Below are positions 2,873 through 16,614 of a DNA stretch of 43,025 bases, piece by piece. A program made the position numbers and the translations under genes. Every line of letters begins with the position of its first letter. Positions within the stretch are counted from its first letter, which is position 1. Below the pieces are notes generated by a model. The model ran no database searches, was not told the origin of the DNA, and saw only the letters and a list, made by a program, of their open reading frames with translations. Source of the DNA: Candidatus Thalassarchaeum sp. (GTDB lineage Archaea > Thermoplasmatota > Poseidoniia > Poseidoniales > Thalassarchaeaceae); assembly GCA_022449345.1 (NCBI GenBank), contig JAKURL010000015.1, positions 1 to 43,025 on the forward strand. The letters run 5' to 3'.

Positions 2873-3280
2873 TTACTCAGTTTTGTCTTCTTCGGGTTGA
2901 ATGACTACTAATGGCGAATTCGCTTCAACACTATCTCCAGGTTTGCAATTTACTGCAGATACGATACCAGATAGTGGTGCATGAATCTCATTTTGCATTT
3001 TCATCGCTTCTAGAATCATTATTACATCCCCCTCCGAAACAACTCCCCCCTCCTCGACTGAGATGGCGACAATCTTACCCGGAATGGTTGAGGAAATGAC
3101 CCCTGATTTCTTGGCTCTGCCTGATTTTTTTCGTTTACTGCCCGCAGATTCATCGACGGAATCACCTTCAATTTCTATGTTGAAACTCTTCCCTCCGACG
3201 GTGACATTCCATACACCATCCTGCTTTTCGAGTTCAACCTCGTATTCTTCACCGTCGACCTTGACTATGCGTTTCGGCAT
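2873..3280 (-). CDS. Biotin carboxyl carrier protein of acyl-CoA carboxylase
   Basis: Carries the carboxybiotin group between biotin carboxylase and carboxyltransferase. The 135-residue product has a lead region of about 60 residues, a Lys/Ser-rich linker, and a C-terminal biotinyl domain with the attachment motif EAMKMQNE (Lys94). The open frame extends upstream to 3379, but the ATG at 3280 is chosen because AGGTGATC, a near-perfect archaeal ribosome binding site, lies immediately before it. The longer version would also overlap the preceding small gene. The carrier is a separate short protein, not the C terminus of a long alpha subunit, and no biotin carboxylase gene lies in this window. 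The likely biotin ligase is encoded at 17931-19346. Confidence 0.9.
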   Translation of the reverse strand: MPKRIVKVDGEEYEVELEKQDGVWNVTVGGKSFNIEIEGDSVDESAGSKRKKSGRAKKSGVISSTIPGKIVAISVEEGGVVSEGDVIMILEAMKMQNEIHAPLSGIVSAVNCKPGDSVEANSPLVVIQPEEDKTE

Positions 3281-3284
3281 GAGA

Positions 3285-3476
3285 TCACCTAGTCGTGCTC
3301 CTACGCGTGCGCGCGCGAAATAGATTTCGTCGACCGATAAGAGAACGTCGATGGTCATGCGACCAAGCAGCACCTCCATCTCTACCTTCAGTAGCCTGCA
3401 AGGCCTGACCTTTCGCCTCTTCCAGCAATACGGCGAGGATTGCCGCAGCCCTCAAGCGATCCTTCTTGCGCGCCAT
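3285..3476 (-). CDS. Small subunit of acyl-CoA carboxylase (PccX/epsilon-like)
   Basis: A 63-residue basic protein with an N-terminal helix (MARKKDRLRAAAILAVLLEE) and a Trp/Arg-rich tail (AAWSHDHRRSLIGRR). This layout resembles the tiny third subunits of archaeal and actinobacterial acyl-CoA carboxylases, such as haloarchaeal PccX, which stabilise or activate the complex. The assignment rests on position, size and pattern, not on a clear motif. It starts 9 bases after the carboxyltransferase stop and ends 4 bases before the biotin carrier start. Its stop codon overlaps that gene's ribosome binding site, which is tight translational packing. An overlapping upstream extension of the biotin carrier frame covers the same DNA, but this frame is better supported. 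Confidence 0.6.
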   Translation of the reverse strand: MARKKDRLRAAAILAVLLEEAKGQALQATEGRDGGAAWSHDHRRSLIGRRNLFRARTRRSTTR

Positions 3477-3485
3477 ATCTATACC

Positions 3486-5039
3486 TCACAATGGGATATT
3501 TCCGTGTTTTCGGGCAGGCCTAATCTCTTCTTTTTCTAGAAGTGCACCCAAAGCCTTGGTCAATCTAACCCTAGTCTCTCTCGGCTGAATTACATCATCG
3601 AGGTAGCCGAGAGATGCGGCGCGATATGGATTTGCAAATGTGTCCTCATAATCATCGATTAACCGTTTTCGCTCTCCTTCTGGATCACCAGCGACTCCAA
3701 TTCTACGTCGATGAATAATCTGGACTGCACCTTCTGCCCCCATAACTGCAAGTTGTGCCGATGGCCAAGCAATGTTGTAGTCGCCACGGATGTGTTTGCT
3801 ACTCATGACGTCGTAAGCGCCTCCGTATGCTTTTCGAGTGATGACGGTTAATTTTGGAACGGTTGCCTCTGCGTAAGCATAGAGCAACTTTGCACCGTGA
3901 CGGATGATCCCACCCCATTCTTGACTGGCTCCTGGAAGGAATCCGGGGACATCTACGAATGTCAGCAATGGAATGTTGAATGCATCACAAAACCTCACGA
4001 ATCTTGCGGCTTTGACAGAGGCATCGATATCCAAGCAGCCAGCCAACACCTTTGGCTGATTGGCAACTACTCCAATGGTATGACCTCCTAATCGTCCAAA
4101 GCCGACAATAATATTCCCAGCAAATTCTGCTTGTACTTCCAAGAATGCTCCATCATCTAGCGTTGCTTCGATTGCATCAACGATATCATAGGGAGTAGTT
4201 GGATCGTTTGGAACCAAATCATCTAGACTTTCACAATCGCGATCTAGTGGGTCAGATGTGGCCTTTATCGGTGGTTTTTCGAGATTGTTCAATGGTAACA
4301 TTGCAACAAGGTCCCGAACTAGCTCTAGTGCTTCATCATCATTTTCTGCGGTAAAATGAGTCACACCAGATCTGGTTGCATGAGTTGATGCACCACCGAG
4401 GTCTTCGAAGCTGACCTCTTCATTGGTCACGGTTTTGATTACCTCTGGACCAGTGATGAACATGTGAGCGGTTTGGTCTACCATTACGACGAAATCGGTA
4501 ATTGCCGGAGAATATACTGCTCCACCAGCACATGGACCCATGATAACTGAGATTTGAGGAATCACACCACTGGCTCGTACATTTCGGAAGAATATCTCAG
4601 CATAGGAACCTAGGCTTGCAACTCCTTCTTGGATACGTGCTCCTCCACTATCATTCAGCCCAATTACCGGGGCCCCTGTCTTTAGTGCCATGTCGAGTAT
4701 TTTGCAGATTTTGAGGCCATGCATTTCGCCCAATGACCCACCATAAACCGTGAAGTCTTGGGCGAAACAATAGACCGTTCTACCACCGATTGTGCCATGC
4801 CCACAAACGACTCCATCTCCTGGAATGACATTTCTATCCATGTCGAAATCACGGCATCGGTGTTCAACTAAACCGTCAACTTCGACGAAAGAATCTTCGT
4901 CCAATAGTTGTTCAACTCTCTCACGAGCTGTCATCTTTCCACGGGCGTGCTGTGCAGCGATTCGCTTCTGTCCGCCGCCGGCCTCGGCCTGTGCCTTACG
5001 GCGGCGCAAGTCATCGATGCGTTCCTTCACGCCTGACAT
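3486..5039 (-). CDS. pccB: Propionyl-CoA / acyl-CoA carboxylase carboxyltransferase (beta) subunit
   Basis: Transfers the carboxyl group from carboxybiotin to propionyl-CoA, forming methylmalonyl-CoA. The 517-residue product matches the usual length. Visible family features are the N-terminal [15 protein letters not shown] helix followed by [16 protein letters not shown], a [13 protein letters not shown] stretch, the oxyanion-hole region [23 protein letters not shown], and [10 protein letters not shown] in the C-terminal half. The frame is open to 5177, but that would overlap the divergent mutase gene. The ATG at 5039 begins the conserved sequence. It is first in an operon with the small subunit and biotin carrier. 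A methylmalonyl-CoA decarboxylase role cannot be excluded from sequence alone, but the adjacent mutase genes favour propionyl-CoA breakdown or synthesis. Confidence 0.9.
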
Positions 5040-5157
5040 GGATGAAACCACAACGAGCCAAAGCCGCCCATGAGCATTCCTAATCAGAACGCAGTGCGCA
5101 GAATGCCTCAATCGGTTGCTTGAAGGGCATCGGAGTTGTCCGAAGCACGACTGAAGC

Positions 5158-5592
5158 ATGCGGATAGTAGTGGCCAAACCCGGCCTAGACGGGCACGATA
5201 GGGGGGCTAAGGTAATCGCACGAGCCCTGCGTGATGGAGGGCATGAGGTGATTTACACCGGACTTAGACGCACTCCTGAAGAGATTGTTCGAATCGTTAT
5301 TGACGAAGATGCCGCAGCGGTCGGTCTTTCTTCATTATCGGGAGCCCATTCTGTACTCATTCCACGGGTTTGTGATGGACTTAGAGATGCTGAAATAAAT
5401 GATGTAATCGTATTTGCAGGCGGAATAATTCCTGAGCACGACCGTCAGAGTTTGTATGACGTTGGAGTTAGAGCTATCTTCGGACCGGGTACAACTTCAA
5501 CAGAAATTCTTGAATTCTTGTCAACCTTAGATGAGCGCTCAGAATCAGGAGAACCTGTTGGGGTTGGAGAAGAGGCAGGGTGGCACTGGTGA
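5158..5592 (+). CDS. Methylmalonyl-CoA mutase, B12-binding subunit
   Basis: The small cobalamin-binding subunit of the archaeal split mutase, which interconverts methylmalonyl-CoA and succinyl-CoA. The 144-residue product begins with the cobalamin signature D-x-H-x2-G (Asp11, His13, Gly16, in GLDGHDRG); His13 is the expected lower cobalt ligand. It continues with GLSSLSGAH and the FAGGIIP and FGPGT turns of the B12-binding Rossmann fold. The large catalytic subunit is not in this window. It is divergent from the carboxyltransferase gene, with 118 bases between the two starts. Its stop overlaps the start of the MeaB gene in a GTGA arrangement, indicating coupled translation. Confidence 0.92.
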
Positions 5593-6458
5593 GCGATTCT
5601 ATCGACTTACTCCAAGAGGCTAGAGACGGTAATCGTCGTTCTTTATCCAAACTTCTAACATTAGTTGAGGAGGGAAATCCTTCTCCTGTTGAACGTGGTA
5701 CTGGTTTATCTCTGGGAATTACTGGTCCACCTGGAGTGGGGAAATCTTCCTTGATTGGAAAAATGATTGACGTTTGGGTTGACCGTGGTGAATCGGTAGC
5801 AGTCTTAGCGGTTGACCCCTCATCTCCTAGAAGCGGCGGCGCTCTTCTAGGAGATAGGATGAGAATGACAAATGCAGACTCGTCCGATTTAGTATTCATC
5901 ATAACACTTGAGACTAGAAAACACCCTGGCGGATTAATGGATTGTTTGACACCCATGGTAGATATTCTCTCAGAATGTAGTTGGGAGAATATCGTAATCG
6001 AAACTGTTGGTGCAGGCCAATCTGAGATTAGAGTGGTGGCTTTTGCTGACAGGATTCTACTCGTCGATGGTCCGGATAGAGGTGACATTATCCAAGCCGA
6101 GAAAGCCGGAATAATGGAACTTGCAGATTTAATCGTCATCAATAAGTCAGATTTGCCTGAGGCAGAAAGAGCCGCGAAGGCGGTGAAGTCAGGCCTATCT
6201 GTTGGCGAAGATGAAACCACACCAGACGTATTACTGGTATCTGCACATTCAGGAGAAGGCATTGAAGAAATGGTCGATGCACTAGCAAACACAACCACTT
6301 CACCTGACCGAGAACGCTTGAGGGTACGTGAGCGATTAATCTCGGCATGGGATTCAACCCTCTTGACATCAAACGAATTGGAAAATACGTTGCAAGAACT
6401 TGAAAAAGGAAGTATAACTCTGCAGGAAGCAGTTGATTGCATCAGAAAGGAAGGTTGA
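5580..6458 (+). CDS. meaB: MeaB/ArgK-type G3E GTPase, methylmalonyl-CoA mutase chaperone
   Basis: GTPase that loads and protects adenosylcobalamin in methylmalonyl-CoA mutase. The 292-residue product has an N-terminal helical part with GNRRSLSKLLT, Walker A GPPGVGKSS (about 49-57), the DPSSPRSGGALLGDR switch region, ETVGAGQSE, NKSD for guanine recognition, and SAHSGEG as the G5 loop. The first start is GTG at 5580. An internal GTG at 5589 overlaps the upstream stop as GTGA and is an equally good choice. It directly follows the B12 subunit gene, as expected for the chaperone. Confidence 0.93.
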   Translation: MALVSDSIDLLQEARDGNRRSLSKLLTLVEEGNPSPVERGTGLSLGITGPPGVGKSSLIGKMIDVWVDRGESVAVLAVDPSSPRSGGALLGDRMRMTNADSSDLVFIITLETRKHPGGLMDCLTPMVDILSECSWENIVIETVGAGQSEIRVVAFADRILLVDGPDRGDIIQAEKAGIMELADLIVINKSDLPEAERAAKAVKSGLSVGEDETTPDVLLVSAHSGEGIEEMVDALANTTTSPDRERLRVRERLISAWDSTLLTSNELENTLQELEKGSITLQEAVDCIRKEG

Positions 6459-9660: not shown

Positions 9661-9981
9661 CTATTCTATTGAGTCCTTGACATTATCGTTTGGTTCAGAT
9701 TTCTCAGAATTCCCCTCAGTGTCTTGTATTGCTTCCATTCCAACGATTTCGTAATTGGAAGGGAATAGGGCAACTACCACTCCCGCAATGATTGCAGCAA
9801 CACCGAGGTAGAATTGTTGTTGCACCATAATTAATTCAAGTCCTATTGCACACAGAAGTAGGCCTCCTAAATTAGAAATCCAAACTAAATTCTTGAATGT
9901 GGAAAGGGATACTCCTGTTGAATTCTCAGTTCTCTTTGGTCCGAATTCGGCACCAAATCTAATCGGGTCATCTTCAACCAT
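9661..9981 (-). CDS. Two-span membrane protein of unknown function
   Basis: A 106-residue protein with two hydrophobic helices, at about residues 33-51 (NLVWISNLGGLLLCAIGLEL) and 57-75 (YLGVAAIIAGVVVALF), between polar ends. The C terminus is acidic. An AGGTGATTGA ribosome binding site precedes the ATG. It begins 4 bases after the ferredoxin stop, so it is very probably co-transcribed with the cytochrome b/Rieske genes. It could be a small accessory subunit of that complex. I recognise no family. Confidence 0.6.
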   Translation of the reverse strand: MVEDDPIRFGAEFGPKRTENSTGVSLSTFKNLVWISNLGGLLLCAIGLELIMVQQQFYLGVAAIIAGVVVALFPSNYEIVGMEAIQDTEGNSEKSEPNDNVKDSIE

Positions 9982-9985
9982 TCAA

Positions 9986-10318
9986 TCACCTATCGATCAT
10001 GATTATTGCATCAGTAGGACATGCAAGGACGCATAGTTTGCATCCGGTGCAAGGGTCTCTTAAGACCCGTGCCTTACGATTGACGTCTACATCCATTATC
10101 GGGCTTGCTAGTGGTGTATCGTATAGTTCAATAGCATCATCGTCACATACAATTGTACATTGATCACAGCCAATACACAACTCTTCCTTTACCCAAGCGA
10201 CTGCATCTTCTCCGCCCTTCAGTTTGGCTCGTTCTTCAGCCCGCATTGCATTCATCATCATGCGAATGCGTTTCTGCTCACGTGCCCGACGGGCTGCAAG
10301 GTCGGGAATATCAGTCAT
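9986..10318 (-). CDS. Two-cluster ferredoxin of the cytochrome b operon
   Basis: A 110-residue protein with a basic, Met/Arg-rich N-terminal helix (about 1-35) and two cysteine sets of the form C-x2-C-x2-C-x3-C: Cys48, 51, 54, 58 and Cys90, 93, 96, 100. It should bind two [4Fe-4S] clusters; the first set lacks the proline normally following its last cysteine. The frame is open to 10423, but the ATG at 10318 starts the coherent protein, and the longer version would overlap the upstream gene. It lies 58 bases after the cytochrome b-Hdr fusion gene. It is a natural candidate for the cytoplasmic electron partner of that fusion. Confidence 0.85.
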   Translation of the reverse strand: MTDIPDLAARRAREQKRIRMMMNAMRAEERAKLKGGEDAVAWVKEELCIGCDQCTIVCDDDAIELYDTPLASPIMDVDVNRKARVLRDPCTGCKLCVLACPTDAIIMIDR

Positions 10319-10376: not shown

Positions 10377-13148
10377 TTATTGCCTCTTTGCCTCAATCTG
10401 TCTTGCGAGGAAAGATACAACATCTAGAATTTCGAAATCGTGTCTTGGATCACCTTCAAACTTGAGACATTCAAAGTGACTGACACACTTCGGGCAACTT
10501 GTGAGCATAATCTCAGCTCCGGTTGCCTTTACTTCATCGAAGCGTTGTAGCCTTAGTGCACGGCTGTTTTCGTTGCAAGACATCATGCTTGAAACACCAC
10601 AACAGAGAGCATCTTCTCCGGTGTGCTCCATCTCTACAAGGTCAACTCCGTCAACTGCCTTTACTAGGTCTCTAGGTTCATCATAGATGTTCATTTGACG
10701 ACCTAGTCGACAAGGATCGTGATATGTCACCGTTACATCTTCAGATGTCGCTAAATCCATTTCGAATCCATTTTCGATTAGGTACTCTGTTGTGTGCATG
10801 ACCTTCATTTCATCGAGTTCGTAATCCATTGCAAAAGTTCGGAAACATTCTGCACAGGAAGTAACCAATGTGTCTATTCCACTCTCACCGAGTTTCTTTT
10901 GGTTGTATGCTTTGAGCTTCTCAAACACCTCAGTCATTCCTTGCCACTTCTGGTCGTGTCCACAGCACTTAAGGAAATCACGACCAAGATAAGTGACATC
11001 CTTACCCATCTCCTCGAAGATTGTGAAAGCAGCAGAAGTAGTCTCTCCAAGGTTCATCTCACCTTCATTGACATGGCTGAAAATCATCTCTTGGTCGATG
11101 TAATCTACACAACCAGGGTAGTATCCGACACTAGAGTCGAGTGGGTATTCCTCAACAGGAATGAATTCGACATCGGCATCCTCTTCCGCTTCCGCTGCTA
11201 GAACTGCTTGAAGGACAGTGTGAGGTATCTCTGCGGCTGGAGGTCCACCGACCACCAAGTTGCGTCGAATGTCAACATATGAGTCGTAGTCGACCAACTG
11301 AGGACAAGCGTTTGTGCACGCAGTGCAGGTCAAACAAGAATATAGAGGAACTCCGTCATCCTCATTGTTCCAAGTGTTGTAAATGATGTTGAGTTTATCA
11401 CCAGCATTGAACAATCTTACCGGACAAGCATCATCGCACAAATCACATCCGTAACACTTGTTCATTTCCCACTCGTATCCTCGAGCCATGCTCCGCATGA
11501 GCATGAACACGATTGCCCCCACTCCCAAACAAGGTACGAATATCGAATAGGTCAATTTAGCATCGAGACTCTTCGGGTTCTTCTCAAAAGTTGGATTTTT
11601 CAAAGTCATTGTTGAAAGTTCAGCGTCGACGGGAAGGTCAGCCCGATTCGAAGCGGCGCCATTTTCGTCAAGTAGAAGTGGTTGGAAAGCCAGCGCAGAA
11701 TAGTCGGTAATCATGGTGACTGTTTCGTTTACTCCGCTGGAAGTGACGTGGTAATCAAGGCGATAAGTACCGGGTGTCAATTTGAGTGTGGTACTATCAC
11801 AAGAACCGTCGGCCGACCAGAGTAACTTACCAGCATCATTTGTCAAGGTCAGGTCTTGCGTGTGGCTTCCAGCATTGCGGACTGTAGTTCGGAAATTGCA
11901 ACCGACATCAACAAAGACCGAGGATAATCCGAGGTCTTCAATCTCGATTACATCGCTCCAAGAATTGCTTATGCTGGAATCATCGGTAGTTCCATTATAC
12001 TCGGTTGCTTCACCAGCAGAGTTCTTGCCATTGTAGGAATGATCATTGAATCCTTCAAAATCAATGACGAGTCGCTGAGTTGGTTGGTATACTCCCCAAT
12101 TAGACCAATGTATTGCCGGAATTACACACCATTTAGCTAGGTCTTCATCATCGTCGAGAGTTTCCCAAACCCCGAGGTCTGAAGATTGCGAGAAAGTCAA
12201 ACATTCATCGCCCCAGTTGCCCCAATCATCTCCCTTTCCATAGTAAACCAGAGTGTCGGAGGGCTGGCCGCGCATAGTTTCCAGTTCCTCTATCTCATCC
12301 ATAGCACCAAGACCTCCATAATCCCAAAATCCTCCTTCGTAAATCGGCCAAGTTACAACGGAAATTAACACGGCAAGAATAAGTGATCCGATTGCTACTT
12401 GCTTACCCATACTGGGGGTCAATCTTGAGCCAATTGAATTGACAAGAAACCATCTGATAGTGAAGAATAACACTACGAAGATGAAAATACCCGTTAGAAT
12501 CCATGGAACTGCGTTGAATACTTCAGCAGTCCAAGGGGCCTGTCTTCCACAATCGAATACATGGTGAGAATTTGCCCAACAGTAGTCCGTCCTATCCTTG
12601 GCGTATAGTTCTAGGAAGATGTTAATCGAGTAGACTGAGATGAACCAAACATGGGCCAAGTAGACAGCTCCAGCAGTGGCAAACCATGGGTCTTCTACGC
12701 CTCTTTTCTCACGTCCACCTAGGAATGGTGGGAGTGTTAGAATACCAACTGGAATTCCTGTCAGAGCCGCTCCCCACCAAGCAGCGTTCCAAGAGATTAC
12801 CGGAGAACCCAAGAATTCTCCAATAGGGCCCGCTGGTATCACGAATTGAGGGAGGTATTCGCCCCATCGCAGGTAACCATAGGAGAACAAAACGTACCAA
12901 TCGGGGAATACGAATCCGGCTTGGGCAAACGGATCAGCAGCGCTGTGTAGTGGAGGAGGAATTAACCAGCAGTAGAAAGACAAAACCATCATCATAGCAG
13001 CAAATATGATTGAATCGCGAAGAACTTCTGTCGGCCATAATGCATGTCCCATATGGACTCGCTTACGTTCTTGTTCTGCTTCGAGAAGACTACTTTTCTC
13101 ACGAACATAGGTGTCTGCTATGCGGCCGAATCTATCGATCATTCCCAT
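10377..13148 (-). CDS. Cytochrome b C-terminal half fused to extracellular domain and HdrD-like iron-sulfur module
   Basis: A 923-residue multidomain protein. Numbered from the ATG at 13148, residues about 40-270 are hydrophobic with around five spans and contain PDWY (82-85), a variant of the PEWY quinol-oxidation motif of subunit IV/cytochrome b C-terminal domains. Residues about 275-530 form a polar, Trp/Asp-rich domain without cofactor motifs, probably outside the cell. A single span (about 532-554) leads to two [4Fe-4S] sets (Cys565, 568, 571, 575 and 605, 608, 611, 615). Two CCG domains follow, as in HdrB/HdrD/GlpC/DsrK: Cys680, 728, 729, 765, 768 and Cys813, 849, 850, 885, 888. The start at 13148 is chosen because GGAGG lies 8 bases upstream; the frame opens at 13163. 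It probably passes electrons between the membrane quinol site and cytoplasmic ferredoxin or thiols. Confidence 0.85.
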   Translation of the reverse strand: MGMIDRFGRIADTYVREKSSLLEAEQERKRVHMGHALWPTEVLRDSIIFAAMMMVLSFYCWLIPPPLHSAADPFAQAGFVFPDWYVLFSYGYLRWGEYLPQFVIPAGPIGEFLGSPVISWNAAWWGAALTGIPVGILTLPPFLGGREKRGVEDPWFATAGAVYLAHVWFISVYSINIFLELYAKDRTDYCWANSHHVFDCGRQAPWTAEVFNAVPWILTGIFIFVVLFFTIRWFLVNSIGSRLTPSMGKQVAIGSLILAVLISVVTWPIYEGGFWDYGGLGAMDEIEELETMRGQPSDTLVYYGKGDDWGNWGDECLTFSQSSDLGVWETLDDDEDLAKWCVIPAIHWSNWGVYQPTQRLVIDFEGFNDHSYNGKNSAGEATEYNGTTDDSSISNSWSDVIEIEDLGLSSVFVDVGCNFRTTVRNAGSHTQDLTLTNDAGKLLWSADGSCDSTTLKLTPGTYRLDYHVTSSGVNETVTMITDYSALAFQPLLLDENGAASNRADLPVDAELSTMTLKNPTFEKNPKSLDAKLTYSIFVPCLGVGAIVFMLMRSMARGYEWEMNKCYGCDLCDDACPVRLFNAGDKLNIIYNTWNNEDDGVPLYSCLTCTACTNACPQLVDYDSYVDIRRNLVVGGPPAAEIPHTVLQAVLAAEAEEDADVEFIPVEEYPLDSSVGYYPGCVDYIDQEMIFSHVNEGEMNLGETTSAAFTIFEEMGKDVTYLGRDFLKCCGHDQKWQGMTEVFEKLKAYNQKKLGESGIDTLVTSCAECFRTFAMDYELDEMKVMHTTEYLIENGFEMDLATSEDVTVTYHDPCRLGRQMNIYDEPRDLVKAVDGVDLVEMEHTGEDALCCGVSSMMSCNENSRALRLQRFDEVKATGAEIMLTSCPKCVSHFECLKFEGDPRHDFEILDVVSFLARQIEAKRQ

Positions 13149-13163
13149 ATAATAAACCTCCAA

Positions 13164-14030
13164 TCAATGTGGCTCCGCAATACCTTGCACCCAGACGATG
13201 AATAAGTGAGCCAGAATCAGTGCAGTCACTACAACAGGTAAAATGAATACGTGTAGGAAATACATTCGTGTAACTGTTTGTCCGGATAGGGAAGTTCCTG
13301 CAAACATTGCAGTTGCAATCCAACTACCGATTAGTGGAGTTGAGTTTGCCATGTTGATTCCAATTGTTGCTGCCCCGAAGGCTAGGCTATCCCAGGGCAG
13401 AAGGTATCCTGAATATCCAAAAAAGATAGTGAAAAACATCAAGGCTACACCGATGAGCCAATTCAATTCACGTGGGTTTCGATAGGCTCCAGTGAAGTAT
13501 ACTCTGCACATGTGCAGGAACACTGCAGCGACCATGAAGTGAGTGGTCCAATGGTGGATTGAGCGCATGATGTAACCGAATGGTAACTGAGTCATGATGA
13601 ATTCCATCGAAGAGTAAGCGGGAGTTGGGTCGCCTTCTCCGCCCGGGACGTAGTATAGTCCTAGAATCGCTCCAGTGATTACTAGAATCACGAAGGCGAG
13701 GAAGGAGATTCCACCAAGGCAGTAAAGCGGATACCAATACCAGATAATTCGAAGTTTGTATTTCTCAGCGTGGGTGAGCGGCATCTGTCTGTGCACGCTG
13801 TAATACGCATCCCTACTCATGCCCCAATAATCTTGAATTCTAAACCTAGTATCTAACCATGAGAATGCCCAGAGAAATGTTTTCTCTGCCAGACCCATAC
13901 TTCCTGCGCTGGTTTCGACAGCCCGCAGTATGTCCTTGCGGGGCAAATCTTCGCGCTCCTTGCGGAGCGTGAATGCAACCAGCACCACAATCAAAGCGAT
14001 GAAAAGCCAAAGAAACCAAAATTGTAACAT
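13164..14030 (-). CDS. Cytochrome b6-like subunit (N-terminal half of cytochrome b)
   Basis: Di-haem membrane subunit of a quinol-oxidising b-type complex. The 288-residue protein has an added N-terminal span (about 3-22) and a charged linker, then the four-helix haem core. Haem ligands are visible as His159 and His173 in one helix and His260 and His275 in another. The second pair is spaced 15 apart as in cytochrome b6, not 14 as in mitochondrial cytochrome b. RSIHHW, VYFTGAYRNPRELNW and GYSGYLLPWD also match the b6 pattern. A GAGGTG site overlaps the Rieske stop just before the ATG. The missing C-terminal helices are supplied by the next gene (10377-13148). Confidence 0.92.
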   Translation of the reverse strand: MLQFWFLWLFIALIVVLVAFTLRKEREDLPRKDILRAVETSAGSMGLAEKTFLWAFSWLDTRFRIQDYWGMSRDAYYSVHRQMPLTHAEKYKLRIIWYWYPLYCLGGISFLAFVILVITGAILGLYYVPGGEGDPTPAYSSMEFIMTQLPFGYIMRSIHHWTTHFMVAAVFLHMCRVYFTGAYRNPRELNWLIGVALMFFTIFFGYSGYLLPWDSLAFGAATIGINMANSTPLIGSWIATAMFAGTSLSGQTVTRMYFLHVFILPVVVTALILAHLFIVWVQGIAEPH

Positions 14031-14039
14031 CTTTTCACC

Positions 14040-14894
14040 TCAGTCGCAATATGTGTACCAATCGATAAACTCGGGCAGAGCCTCGATTATATCTCCAGAT
14101 TTTACCCAAGGGATCAGAGGTAGGCCGATTGGCGCAGGGCCACCGGTTCTTCGGATTCCAATGAAATCGAATTCTGCCCCTGTAGATCTATTTCTGTTGC
14201 GATTTTTCTCAATCGCAGTGGGGTCAAACCTACTGGAGTGACAAATACAGAATAATTTGTTTCCACCTGCGTCTACAGCACCAGGGGTCCATTGATCATT
14301 GGCGAAATCGTTCCGGACCAATTGCCAGCCCGGTATACAGCACAAGTGTGTACATCGGGAGAAAATCAATATCAGATTGTCATGAATCGAAAGTGATGCA
14401 TAATCTGGGTTTTCTTCGAGTTCGTATCCGCTCCCAACATATTTTCCACTTTCGGTATACCCCTCCATAAACTGAAATCGTGGAACATTGGTAGTTGCTG
14501 CTTCAGCTACGTTTTCTTCGTGAGGGACGTAGATTACGTTCACAGGCATACCCGACCAAACTCCTTGAGCACCAGACATACCTGTTGCACTGTTAGCCGC
14601 AGCATCAACGAATGCGGAGTAATTCATCGGCTCTAGATGCCGGTCACCATACCAGGCAGAATCTTCTGCACCCGTTGGCACCCAGAACCTGACAGCGGAA
14701 TCTCCACCGGAGGATTCTGAGGCACCCATAAGTAGGGAAGCGAAGCCTATGCTACCAAGACTCGCCATTGTGATTACTCCGGCTGCGGTGTTGAATGAAT
14801 GGCGCATGAATTCCCTTCTGTCAATAACAGGATTAGAATCTCTAGAATCCTCCTCCTCTCCGGGCAGGGGCCGCAATCGGAATCTTCGCGCCAT
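14040..14894 (-). CDS. Rieske [2Fe-2S] iron-sulfur protein
   Basis: High-potential electron acceptor of the cytochrome b complex. The 284-residue protein has a basic N terminus, a DRREFMRHSF stretch and a hydrophobic anchor at about 36-57 that resembles a Tat-type uncleaved signal. The cluster motifs are CTHLCC (Cys181, His183 as ligands, Cys186) and CICH (Cys216, His219 as ligands, Cys218). Cys186 and Cys218 would form the usual disulfide. A long region (about 60-165) precedes the cluster domain. GAGGTGTGAT lies before the ATG. It is three bases after the preceding 149-residue membrane protein gene, within the cytochrome operon. Confidence 0.93.
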   Translation of the reverse strand: MARRFRLRPLPGEEEDSRDSNPVIDRREFMRHSFNTAAGVITMASLGSIGFASLLMGASESSGGDSAVRFWVPTGAEDSAWYGDRHLEPMNYSAFVDAAANSATGMSGAQGVWSGMPVNVIYVPHEENVAEAATTNVPRFQFMEGYTESGKYVGSGYELEENPDYASLSIHDNLILIFSRCTHLCCIPGWQLVRNDFANDQWTPGAVDAGGNKLFCICHSSRFDPTAIEKNRNRNRSTGAEFDFIGIRRTGGPAPIGLPLIPWVKSGDIIEALPEFIDWYTYCD

Positions 14895-14897
14895 CTA

Positions 14898-15347
14898 TCA
14901 CACCTCGTATTGTTTCCATCCATCAGTGTCGTTGGGCGTGATGTATTTGTTTCGTCGATGTTTGACGACGATGACATCAGGCATTACAAATCTAAGGTAA
15001 ACTATTCCCATGAGTATCACGGTAAGGAGAGTCATTGCTAGATGGAAGGATAACTGCTGTTGATCCCAATGATTGAATAATCCATAGGATAGTGTTCCAG
15101 CCCAATAGAGAGTCCACAGAACCCCCCACATTGCGAAGATGATTACTAGCCAGGAATCTCCGGAAGGTGAGATACTGGCGCGAATAATGGTTCCTGGTTC
15201 AGGGTCATTGAATACCCCGTGATCAACAGCATTCTGGTATGCATCTTCACTCAACTCAACATTGGAAAGAGCTTCACGAGCATCTTCAACACTGACTTTA
15301 CCGGCCTTTACCTCGCGTAGAAGTGTCATAACAACATCATCTTTCAT
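14898..15347 (-). CDS. Two-span membrane subunit of the cytochrome operon, unknown function
   Basis: A 149-residue protein. Residues 1-50 form a charged helical region (LLREVKAGKVSVEDAREALSN) that resembles short oligomerisation or helix-turn-helix modules. Two hydrophobic helices follow at about 66-88 and 98-120, then a basic tail. Its start overlaps the preceding gene's stop by four bases and it ends three bases before the Rieske gene, so it is certainly in this operon. It contains no haem or metal motif and is probably a structural subunit of the complex. I do not recognise the family. Confidence 0.65.
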   Translation of the reverse strand: MKDDVVMTLLREVKAGKVSVEDAREALSNVELSEDAYQNAVDHGVFNDPEPGTIIRASISPSGDSWLVIIFAMWGVLWTLYWAGTLSYGLFNHWDQQQLSFHLAMTLLTVILMGIVYLRFVMPDVIVVKHRRNKYITPNDTDGWKQYEV

Positions 15348-16159
15348 AGTTGATCGCCTCGTCGAAGATGCTTGATTCGCAACTTTAGCAAATTGCTCCT
15401 CCCAACATAGTGGCGGGAGAACCCATATCGAAGGAAGAAGCCACAGAATAGAATCACCAATATTACCGCAGTAAATCCAAGCACACCGAGCCAGTGGGCA
15501 CGAAGCTTAGCACCCATGTGGTGAAGATCCACGTGAGTTTCGACAGGTGCTGGAGGCTCAATCTCTCCATTACCGCTGAAGACGGTTCTAGTATCACCGG
15601 AGTCTTCGCCCTCCTCTACGGAGACGGACAACCTATTCCATCTGTCGAGTTCACTAGGTAAACCATCGCCATCAACGGAATTACCTGCCAACCAGAAGGT
15701 TACTGGTCCGGTGCCCGATTCAGGAGCAGTCCAAACAATCATCCATGCTCTATCAGGTGTTTCTACACCGGAGCCAGCATGGCTTAGGGTTTTTACATCC
15801 TCTTCCCAATTCTGGACTAGATTTTCATATCCCTCAGCGCCCATTAAAGTCCCAGAGGTGACCCTCATTGAAAATCCACCTGTGTTCGAACTACTGTCAA
15901 TATCAGGACCTCCTATTAATTGGATAGTAAGTGTGTAAGAAACCCCTGCTGAATAGTGATAGGGAAGATCATCTAAAATTACAGTGACAGAGTTATCTGG
16001 TAGTTCGTTATGACACGTGCAACCAGCTAGTGCAACATCTCCATCGCCGTTTTCGTCTCCTCCGATACCGGTGGAGTATCCTTGAGTCGAGCCAGCTAAT
16101 AGTAGAGCAAAACAGCCCAGAACTACAAGCCGAGGAAAGGTCGGTTGATGTACTCTCAT
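15344..16159 (-). CDS. Secreted, membrane-anchored Reelin-like domain protein with a C-x-C-H motif
   Basis: A 271-residue protein. It has a signal peptide (about 10-27) and a short Gly/Asp-rich stretch with AGCTCHNE (Cys47, Cys49, His50). A beta-rich domain follows, with YHYSAGVSYTLTIQL, AWMIVWTAPESGTG and VTFWLAGNSVDGDG, and then a C-terminal span (about 215-237) with a basic tail. The domain resembles the Reelin-like/choice-of-anchor V proteins of marine bacteria, whose N termini often carry a haem-like C-x2-C-H; here one spacer residue is missing. The frame opens at 16267, but the ATG at 16159 has GAGGTC before it and starts the signal peptide. As first gene of the cytochrome operon, it may sit next to the Rieske protein outside the membrane. 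Confidence 0.7.
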   Translation of the reverse strand: MRVHQPTFPRLVVLGCFALLLAGSTQGYSTGIGGDENGDGDVALAGCTCHNELPDNSVTVILDDLPYHYSAGVSYTLTIQLIGGPDIDSSSNTGGFSMRVTSGTLMGAEGYENLVQNWEEDVKTLSHAGSGVETPDRAWMIVWTAPESGTGPVTFWLAGNSVDGDGLPSELDRWNRLSVSVEEGEDSGDTRTVFSGNGEIEPPAPVETHVDLHHMGAKLRAHWLGVLGFTAVILVILFCGFFLRYGFSRHYVGRSNLLKLRIKHLRRGDQL

Positions 16160-16218
16160 CTTTTGACCTCTGTTGTCAATCCTTTCCAGCCGTCTGAGGG
16201 CTATCAAGGTTTCAGTTT

Positions 16219-16233
16219 GACCCCTTCGGGGTC
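16219..16233. repeat. Perfect 15-bp palindrome in a divergent promoter region
   Basis: GACCCC and GGGGTC arms flank a three-base centre between the divergent starts of the cytochrome operon (16159) and the TPR gene (16252). The plus strand continues into a T-rich stretch. It could be an operator for either gene or a hairpin in a leader. There is no further evidence for which. Confidence 0.4.
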
Positions 16234-16251
16234 GTCCTATTTTTCTTGTGA

Positions 16252-16614
16252 ATGTACTATGATCCAAACCTGCGAAAACTCAAACCAAGCCACTACTTCG
16301 TTGGTAATATGGCGGGTCCAGTTTGGAAGAACATTTACCGTCTCAGCGACGAGCAAATCGCCTCACTTGACGAGGCTGAGGAGAAGATGGAAATAATGGA
16401 TATCACCGAGGCCGAAGAGATCCTTCTTGGGATGTTGGAAGATGATCCAAAATGCGTTCCCGTATTGAACAATCTAGGCCACATGAATGGAAGATATCTA
16501 TCTGAATTTGAAAAGGCTGTTGAATACTATGATATGGTTCTTGAGATAGAGCCGGACAACGCTTGGGCCAGAGATGAAAGAAGGCGGTATCGCCGTTATC
16601 TTACCTATGATTGA
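16252..16614 (+). CDS. Small TPR-repeat protein
   Basis: A 120-residue protein of mostly helical character. Residues about 50-110 carry two tetratricopeptide-like units, seen in ILLGMLEDDPKCVPVLNNLG and then FEKAVEYYDMVLEIEPDNAWAR, the latter close to the TPR consensus. TPRs mediate protein contacts; the partner is unknown. The start is uncertain: the ATG at 16252 gives MYYDPNLRK, while the ATG at 16309 starts MAGPVWKN; neither has a clear ribosome binding site. It is divergent from the cytochrome operon and followed by the FtsZ-like gene after 30 bases. Confidence 0.7.
   Translation: MYYDPNLRKLKPSHYFVGNMAGPVWKNIYRLSDEQIASLDEAEEKMEIMDITEAEEILLGMLEDDPKCVPVLNNLGHMNGRYLSEFEKAVEYYDMVLEIEPDNAWARDERRRYRRYLTYD

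Follow-up and report, generated by a model that had tools for sequence, protein, structure and literature searches.

The Poseidoniales are among the most abundant archaea of the surface ocean, and they have been described without a canonical complex III and with an unexplained lone RnfB (PMC6336850). In an operon of Candidatus Thalassarchaeum sp. (the window, i.e., the whole stretch of DNA analysed here, spans 43,025 nucleotides) one half of a cytochrome b continues into an iron-sulfur module resembling that of heterodisulfide reductases, which raises the question of what complex this operon encodes and which electrons would pass through the module. An earlier note on this DNA had read the cytochrome b half and the Hdr-like module as a single polypeptide, and the reading frame, Pfam and a PetD profile all bear this out. 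The anatomy of the complex is well supported; its function is what we infer from it.

A PetD-like subunit carrying an iron-sulfur module

The fused subunit occupies a single unbroken frame on the minus strand, from an ATG at 13148 to a stop at 10377. The frame is open over 10377-13163 if a TTG start is used, but judging by the sequence the ATG at 13148 is the more likely start over the TTG at 13163, as GGAGG, a good ribosome-binding sequence, lies directly upstream of it. From N to C terminus, the parts of the subunit are as follows.

10377..13148, minus strand: whole fused subunit, i.e., PetD, extra spans and outer domain, two [4Fe-4S] motifs and two CCG domains (923 aa; translation, Pfam)
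12429..13148, minus strand: PetD-like C-terminal half of cytochrome b (residues 1-240, four spans; profile match and hydropathy)
11574..12428, minus strand: Poseidoniales-specific insert, i.e., fifth span and outer beta-sandwich (residues 241-525; predicted model, and missing in the L091, L092 and Marine Group III homologues)
11487..11573, minus strand: sixth span, returning the chain to the cytoplasm (residues 526-554; hydropathy)
11301..11456, minus strand: two [4Fe-4S] motifs (residues 565-616; Pfam Fer4_9/Fer4_8; cysteines invariant in 40 homologues)
10758..11135, minus strand: first CCG domain (residues ~672-797; Pfam CCG; fold match to EtfD, LutA and HdrB)
10458..10751, minus strand: second CCG domain with a complete five-cysteine motif (residues ~800-897; Pfam CCG at 807-892)

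A Pfam search alone gave no name to the PetD part. A profile built from five diverse PetD parts matched the C-terminal half of cytochrome b (E 1.5e-10) and subunit IV of b6f (E 4e-6) in the PDB, and the quinol-site motif PDWY (residues 82-85, nt 12894-12905) is invariant across 40 homologues. A structure predicted for the PetD-[4Fe-4S] part of a shorter relative, too weak to yield distances (mean pLDDT 59), confirmed the cytochrome b fold in Foldseek, with significant E-values to cytochrome b subunits only. The model of the fused subunit falls under pLDDT 50 at residues 555-645, the [4Fe-4S] region. Its middle, outer domain (~370-490) is predicted to be a beta-sandwich confined to the Poseidoniales form, and a fold search with it returned common beta-sandwich matches alone (best Z 8.9).

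The cluster motifs read C565x2Cx2Cx3CP and C605x2Cx2Cx3CP, and from here on we infer the cluster identities. Pfam CCG matches two stretches (E 2.1e-23), with C680, C728-C729 and C765-x2-C768 in the first domain and C813-x35-C849-C850-x34-C885-x2-C888 in the second; the window protein has all 10 CCG cysteines, and the C-x35-CC-x34-C-x2-C spacing of the second domain, noted earlier, is found again in the translation. Hydropathy places six spans ahead of the first cluster motif, and lysines and arginines number 20 on the N-terminal side of the membrane versus 7 on the opposite side. By span count and the positive-inside rule, the N terminus, the cluster motifs and the CCG domains are thus predicted to be cytoplasmic and the middle domain outside, in agreement with the topology proposed in the earlier note. 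The module is predicted to lie on the n side in relatives as well, despite differing numbers of spans (six in the window, eight in L160, seven in L154).

Two known systems resemble the module closely. With HdrD/HdrBC it shares the order of two [4Fe-4S] motifs and two CCG domains, the C-x-E-C motif and the HdrB fold (Z ~20), but here it is joined to PetD, no coenzyme M/B metabolism is known, and the first CCG domain is degenerate in relatives: the HdrD combination of two [4Fe-4S] motifs and two five-cysteine CCG domains is found in the window and is incomplete in several relatives. The curated NCBIfam families closest to the fused subunit (TfrB, LdhH, DsrK and GlpC) all match far below their cut-offs. 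The closest solved structure is EtfD (9ojn; Z 23.2 over 254 residues, 28% identity), likewise a single chain of spans followed by two [4Fe-4S] clusters and two CCG domains that forms a wire to quinone (PMC13083937); EtfD differs in its non-PetD membrane part, the C-P-H-C of its first CCG domain, its ETF donor and the lack of a Rieske/b6 partner. We considered the invariant Glu767, which aligns to His583 of EtfD, as a sign that the second cluster is a non-catalytic wire and dropped the idea, given that possibly catalytic HdrD-like homologues share this Glu.

The operon and its partner subunits

The operon runs on the minus strand in the order choice-of-anchor V protein, DUF7318-like protein, Rieske, b6, fused subunit, ferredoxin and small membrane protein, and it is the sole Rieske/cytochrome b operon of the genome. 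The Rieske protein, cytochrome b6 and two-cluster ferredoxin that had been placed beside the fusion were recognised in this gene run by Pfam and NCBIfam.

15344..16267, minus strand: choice-of-anchor V domain protein with C-terminal membrane anchor and GCxCH motif (NCBIfam E 9.6e-24)
14898..15347, minus strand: DUF7318-like membrane subunit (Pfam E 3.1e-5, slightly under cut-off; present in operons of distant lineages)
14040..14894, minus strand: Rieske protein, CTHLCC...CICHSS (NCBIfam Rieske_proteo E 2.9e-10; conserved motif)
13164..14030, minus strand: cytochrome b6 with four haem histidines and the haem-ci cysteine (b6f cytochrome b6 6rqf, E 1e-41)
9986..10318, minus strand: two-cluster, RnfB-like ferredoxin, 110 aa (Pfam Fer4_21 E 7.6e-12; start set by comparison)
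9661..9981, minus strand: small two-span membrane protein, final gene of the run (co-occurs in most loci)

The features of a Rieske/cytochrome b complex are all there, i.e., four haem histidines, PDWY and the Rieske [2Fe-2S] motif. Like cytochrome b6f, the complex has a split cytochrome b of b6/PetD type, a Rieske protein, the four haem histidines and the haem-ci cysteine; unlike b6f, its PetD bears [4Fe-4S] and CCG domains, and neither Pfam nor NCBIfam shows a gene for cytochrome f or c1 in the operon, the choice-of-anchor V protein standing in that place. This protein is probably the acceptor-side subunit. Its GCxCH motif recurs in 40 of 43 homologues (L032-L051, L093-L096, L124, L134-L151), and its position is taken elsewhere by a monohaem cytochrome c (L153) or by a protein that reads as a cupredoxin (L125, L131). 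Since other lineages have such proteins in the same place, the anchor-V protein may be the electron acceptor of the Rieske protein, with an atypical haem or metal site. An additional Rieske cysteine (CTHLCC rather than CTHLGC) is seen in essentially all operons of the group. The small membrane protein is weakly DUF7322-like by Pfam, comes directly after the ferredoxin gene in the majority of Poseidoniales and could be one more subunit of the complex. Elsewhere in the window, at 2873-6458, lies an apparent propionyl-CoA/methylmalonyl-CoA set, read from the sequence as biotin carrier, carboxyltransferase, B12-binding mutase subunit and MeaB-like GTPase.

The genome encodes a single b6. The four haem-ligand histidines are found in 93 of 93 aligned b6 sequences, and Cys104 (nt 13719-13721) is the counterpart in the alignment of Cys35, the haem-ci ligand of 6rqf. 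A table of this cysteine against the iron-sulfur module suggested that the two track each other, but it reflects about two changes on the b6 tree and is not significant. One Marine Group III subclade has Ser at the haem-ci position with the module present, and L132 has Cys with the module absent, so the cysteine and the module are separable.

The ferredoxin probably starts at 10318 instead of 10423, since its relatives are 110 aa long, and its best NCBIfam match is rnfB (E 4.2e-12, under the cut-off of that family). Its gene accompanies the complex into distant lineages. For Marine Group II (MGII), Tully reported a lone RnfB, cytochrome b and Rieske proteins without a canonical bc1, and RnfACDEG as missing (PMC6336850). 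The operon ferredoxin is very probably this lone RnfB; neither RnfC nor other Rnf subunits accompany it, and no RnfC scores above its cut-off anywhere in the genome.

Distribution and descent of the fusion

Full-length, single-frame fusions without internal stops occur in ~127 of 193 sampled Poseidoniales genomes, counted as the listed rows with one match over essentially the whole query. Most of the remaining genomes hold pieces at contig ends or one long frame split into two alignments, the latter because the variable outer domain breaks the match, and a split in adjacent frames is limited to two isolated genomes (G009, G059). A fusion by sequencing error is ruled out by the single frame found across the order. 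Among 40 aligned proteins the [4Fe-4S]/CCG cysteine part is the best conserved portion, far above the outer domain, which, together with the order-wide conservation of the protein, excludes chance.

Simpler and split forms exist in other lineages. A groundwater Thermoplasmata genome (L091/L154) encodes a 789-aa fusion without the outer domain, and a form of 606 aa occurs in L092/L155 and L097/L156. In L092 this shorter fusion is followed by a gene (5435-6379) that reads as an HdrA-like flavoprotein truncated by the contig end, with one 4Fe-4S site only by Pfam. In L160, a PetD-[4Fe-4S] protein of 453 aa is followed by CCG-CCG and then ferredoxin, and Marine Group III has PetD-[4Fe-4S] (~342-378 aa), CCG-CCG (~295-365 aa) and ferredoxin as separate genes. 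The check proposed in the earlier note, whether other genomes have the halves as separate genes, came out mixed: Marine Group III is split between [4Fe-4S] and CCG, but the subunit is fused throughout the Poseidoniales. As this split falls at another point and the fusion is order-wide, the fused gene is no sequence error. A contig labelled Chloroflexi bacterium EAC10 (L147) bears the Marine Group III operon, most likely through mis-binning. One genome scan with two short peptide patterns found no fusion outside Thermoplasmatota.

Haloarchaea and other Thermoplasmatota have Rieske/cytochrome b operons with the same gene order (anchor protein, DUF7318, Rieske, b6, PetD), but there PetD stands alone, in other Thermoplasmatota families as in one haloarchaeon. 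The lone PetD ends in YExxLNxxYYxxR, which aligns with the YExxLNxCYxC from which the fused form goes on, and this alignment suggests common descent of the PetD/Fe-S junction. All 15 PetD-linked CCG modules, fused or split, fall in one clade with support 100/100, L094 among them; an AU test for one such clade was negative only because L094, itself PetD-linked, had been grouped as 'other'. From the simpler forms in other lineages and the single CCG clade it follows that the Poseidoniales outer domain and its flanking spans were inserted later, into a PetD-[4Fe-4S]-CCG2 subunit of simpler build.

The claim of the earlier note that no complex of this architecture had been described was too strong, given that for Ca. 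Angelarchaeales Diamond et al. (2022) reported hdrD-like and rnfB-like genes adjoining complex III and suggested that electrons enter there from ferredoxin (PMC9038741). That locus is alike in having both genes next to a Thermoplasmatota cytochrome b complex, but the text describes no PetD fusion, topology, haem ci or Marine Group III ferredoxin fusions (PMC9038741). In the open-licence literature we found no account of a fusion to PetD as such. What this analysis adds is that PetD and the module are covalently joined, that the fusion is conserved across the order and has split counterparts, that the module is predicted to lie on the n side, that b6 keeps the haem-ci cysteine, that the ferredoxin partner is fused to low-potential carriers in Marine Group III, and that ETF can be set aside as the obvious donor.

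Electron donor, direction and meaning

The strongest hint at the donor comes from Marine Group III, where the ferredoxin subunit is N-terminally fused to a Sulfolobus-type zinc ferredoxin (E 7e-28; L093:8559-9407) or, in a different subclade, to a flavodoxin (E 7.5e-27; L096:6004-6993). (Zinc) ferredoxin and flavodoxin are the two classic low-potential one-electron carriers, and here each has been fused independently to the same partner. The genome encodes 2-oxoacid:ferredoxin oxidoreductase (POR/KOR) and a complex I core, and NuoF was not found in it; with POR/KOR present and neither NuoF nor RnfC, ferredoxin needs an oxidant at the membrane. We therefore consider it somewhat better than an even bet that this is a Rieske/cytochrome b complex with a port on the n side, where ferredoxin would pass electrons to quinone over an iron-sulfur wire and haem bH/ci. 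Reduced ferredoxin, produced by 2-oxoacid:ferredoxin oxidoreductase, would dock onto the RnfB-like ferredoxin subunit and/or the CCG domains, and its electrons would run from the CCG clusters over the [4Fe-4S] pair to the n-side haems ci/bH. There, joined by the low-potential electron that the normal Q cycle supplies, they would reduce quinone at Qi; the resulting quinol would be re-oxidised at the Qo (PDWY) site, and the high-potential electron would leave through the Rieske protein to an outside acceptor.

Path, donor and direction are proposed on the strength of comparison. Haem ci is located at the n-side quinone site, and energetics favour flow from ferredoxin to quinone and oppose quinol-driven ferredoxin reduction. 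The b6f complex has been suggested to serve as a ferredoxin-plastoquinone reductase at haem ci (PMC13287000), and in EtfD the CCG clusters and two [4Fe-4S] clusters lead to haem b and menaquinone in steps of 7-9 A (PMC13083937). Given the haem-ci site and the EtfD wire, the path from ferredoxin over CCG/[4Fe-4S] and haem ci/bH to quinone is the most economical one. Against it stand L153, in which PetD-[4Fe-4S] has no adjoining CCG, several f2 genomes with the ferredoxin gene apart (L032, L040, L044), and complex I, which without NuoF is a competing ferredoxin oxidant and could take all of the ferredoxin.

The same wire in the same n-side position, with a ferredoxin in the operon, would also suit quinol bifurcation, in which the low-potential electron from Qo passes over haem bH and the iron-sulfur module to cytoplasmic ferredoxin. 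Ferredoxin lies near -420 mV, ~300 mV below the b haems by standard potentials, so this electron would go uphill and, moving to the negative side, against the membrane potential. The organism is moreover an aerobic heterotroph (PMC6336850) with its own ferredoxin source (POR/KOR), and we regard bifurcation as highly improbable. Of the two options in the earlier note, a new bifurcating or a ferredoxin-quinone coupling complex, the second is the best reading, and the first is uphill. That the CCG module accepts electrons from ETF, like mycobacterial EtfD, is suggested by EtfD being the closest solved structure and by an ETF pair in a genome where no ubiquinone-type ETF-QO was found. However, a true EtfD is encoded separately in the genome (L106:5294-7297, contig C10; E 6e-108 against the mycobacterial structure), which removes the obvious case for ETF as donor; the ETF genes lie on a different contig (C26), and the EtfD-type motif (C..CxG..CPHC) of the genome's own EtfD is absent from the window module, whose first CCG motif is of HdrD type (C-x-E-C; CCG..CAEC). 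An ETF donor thus appears improbable.

That very motif, and the ten CCG cysteines kept in most Poseidoniales, would fit an enzyme performing HdrD-like chemistry on a small disulfide or using an organic substrate while exchanging electrons with the quinone pool; CCG families often use small metabolites, as the weak NCBIfam matches to TfrB and LdhH recall. But the first CCG domain lacks one Hdr cysteine in one Poseidoniales genus (L051, with CSG), in L160 and in a large part of Marine Group III (CSG or CAEG), which argues that catalysis is no conserved function, and the operon has no thiol-metabolism gene. We hold such an enzyme to be unlikely, and the disulfide acceptor named as possible in the earlier note is not retained. 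The HdrA-like gene after the fusion in L092/L155 could point to a flavin-coupled Hdr-like complex fed by NADH or another two-electron donor in some lineages, but it is known from one lineage, is cut by the contig end and has no counterpart in Poseidoniales or Marine Group III operons, so we give this only a slight chance.

Returning to the ferredoxin port, a more specific version is tentative and in our estimate falls short of even: a hard-wired ferredoxin:quinone reductase within a b6f-like complex, driving the Q cycle in the aerobic respiration of Poseidoniales and Marine Group III. If true, it would be a hard-wired version of the b6f cyclic-electron-flow reaction, long suspected and unproven in photosynthesis. 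The molecular identity of ferredoxin entry into the plant b6f is still disputed (PMC10931702, PMC13287000), and if electrons enter at haem ci/bH, the complex would offer a genetically simple, covalently defined model of ferredoxin entry into a b6f-type complex. For the Poseidoniales themselves, the operon accounts for both puzzles: their complex III is of b6/PetD type, its PetD being modified, and the supposedly solitary 'RnfB' very probably belongs to it as the ferredoxin subunit.
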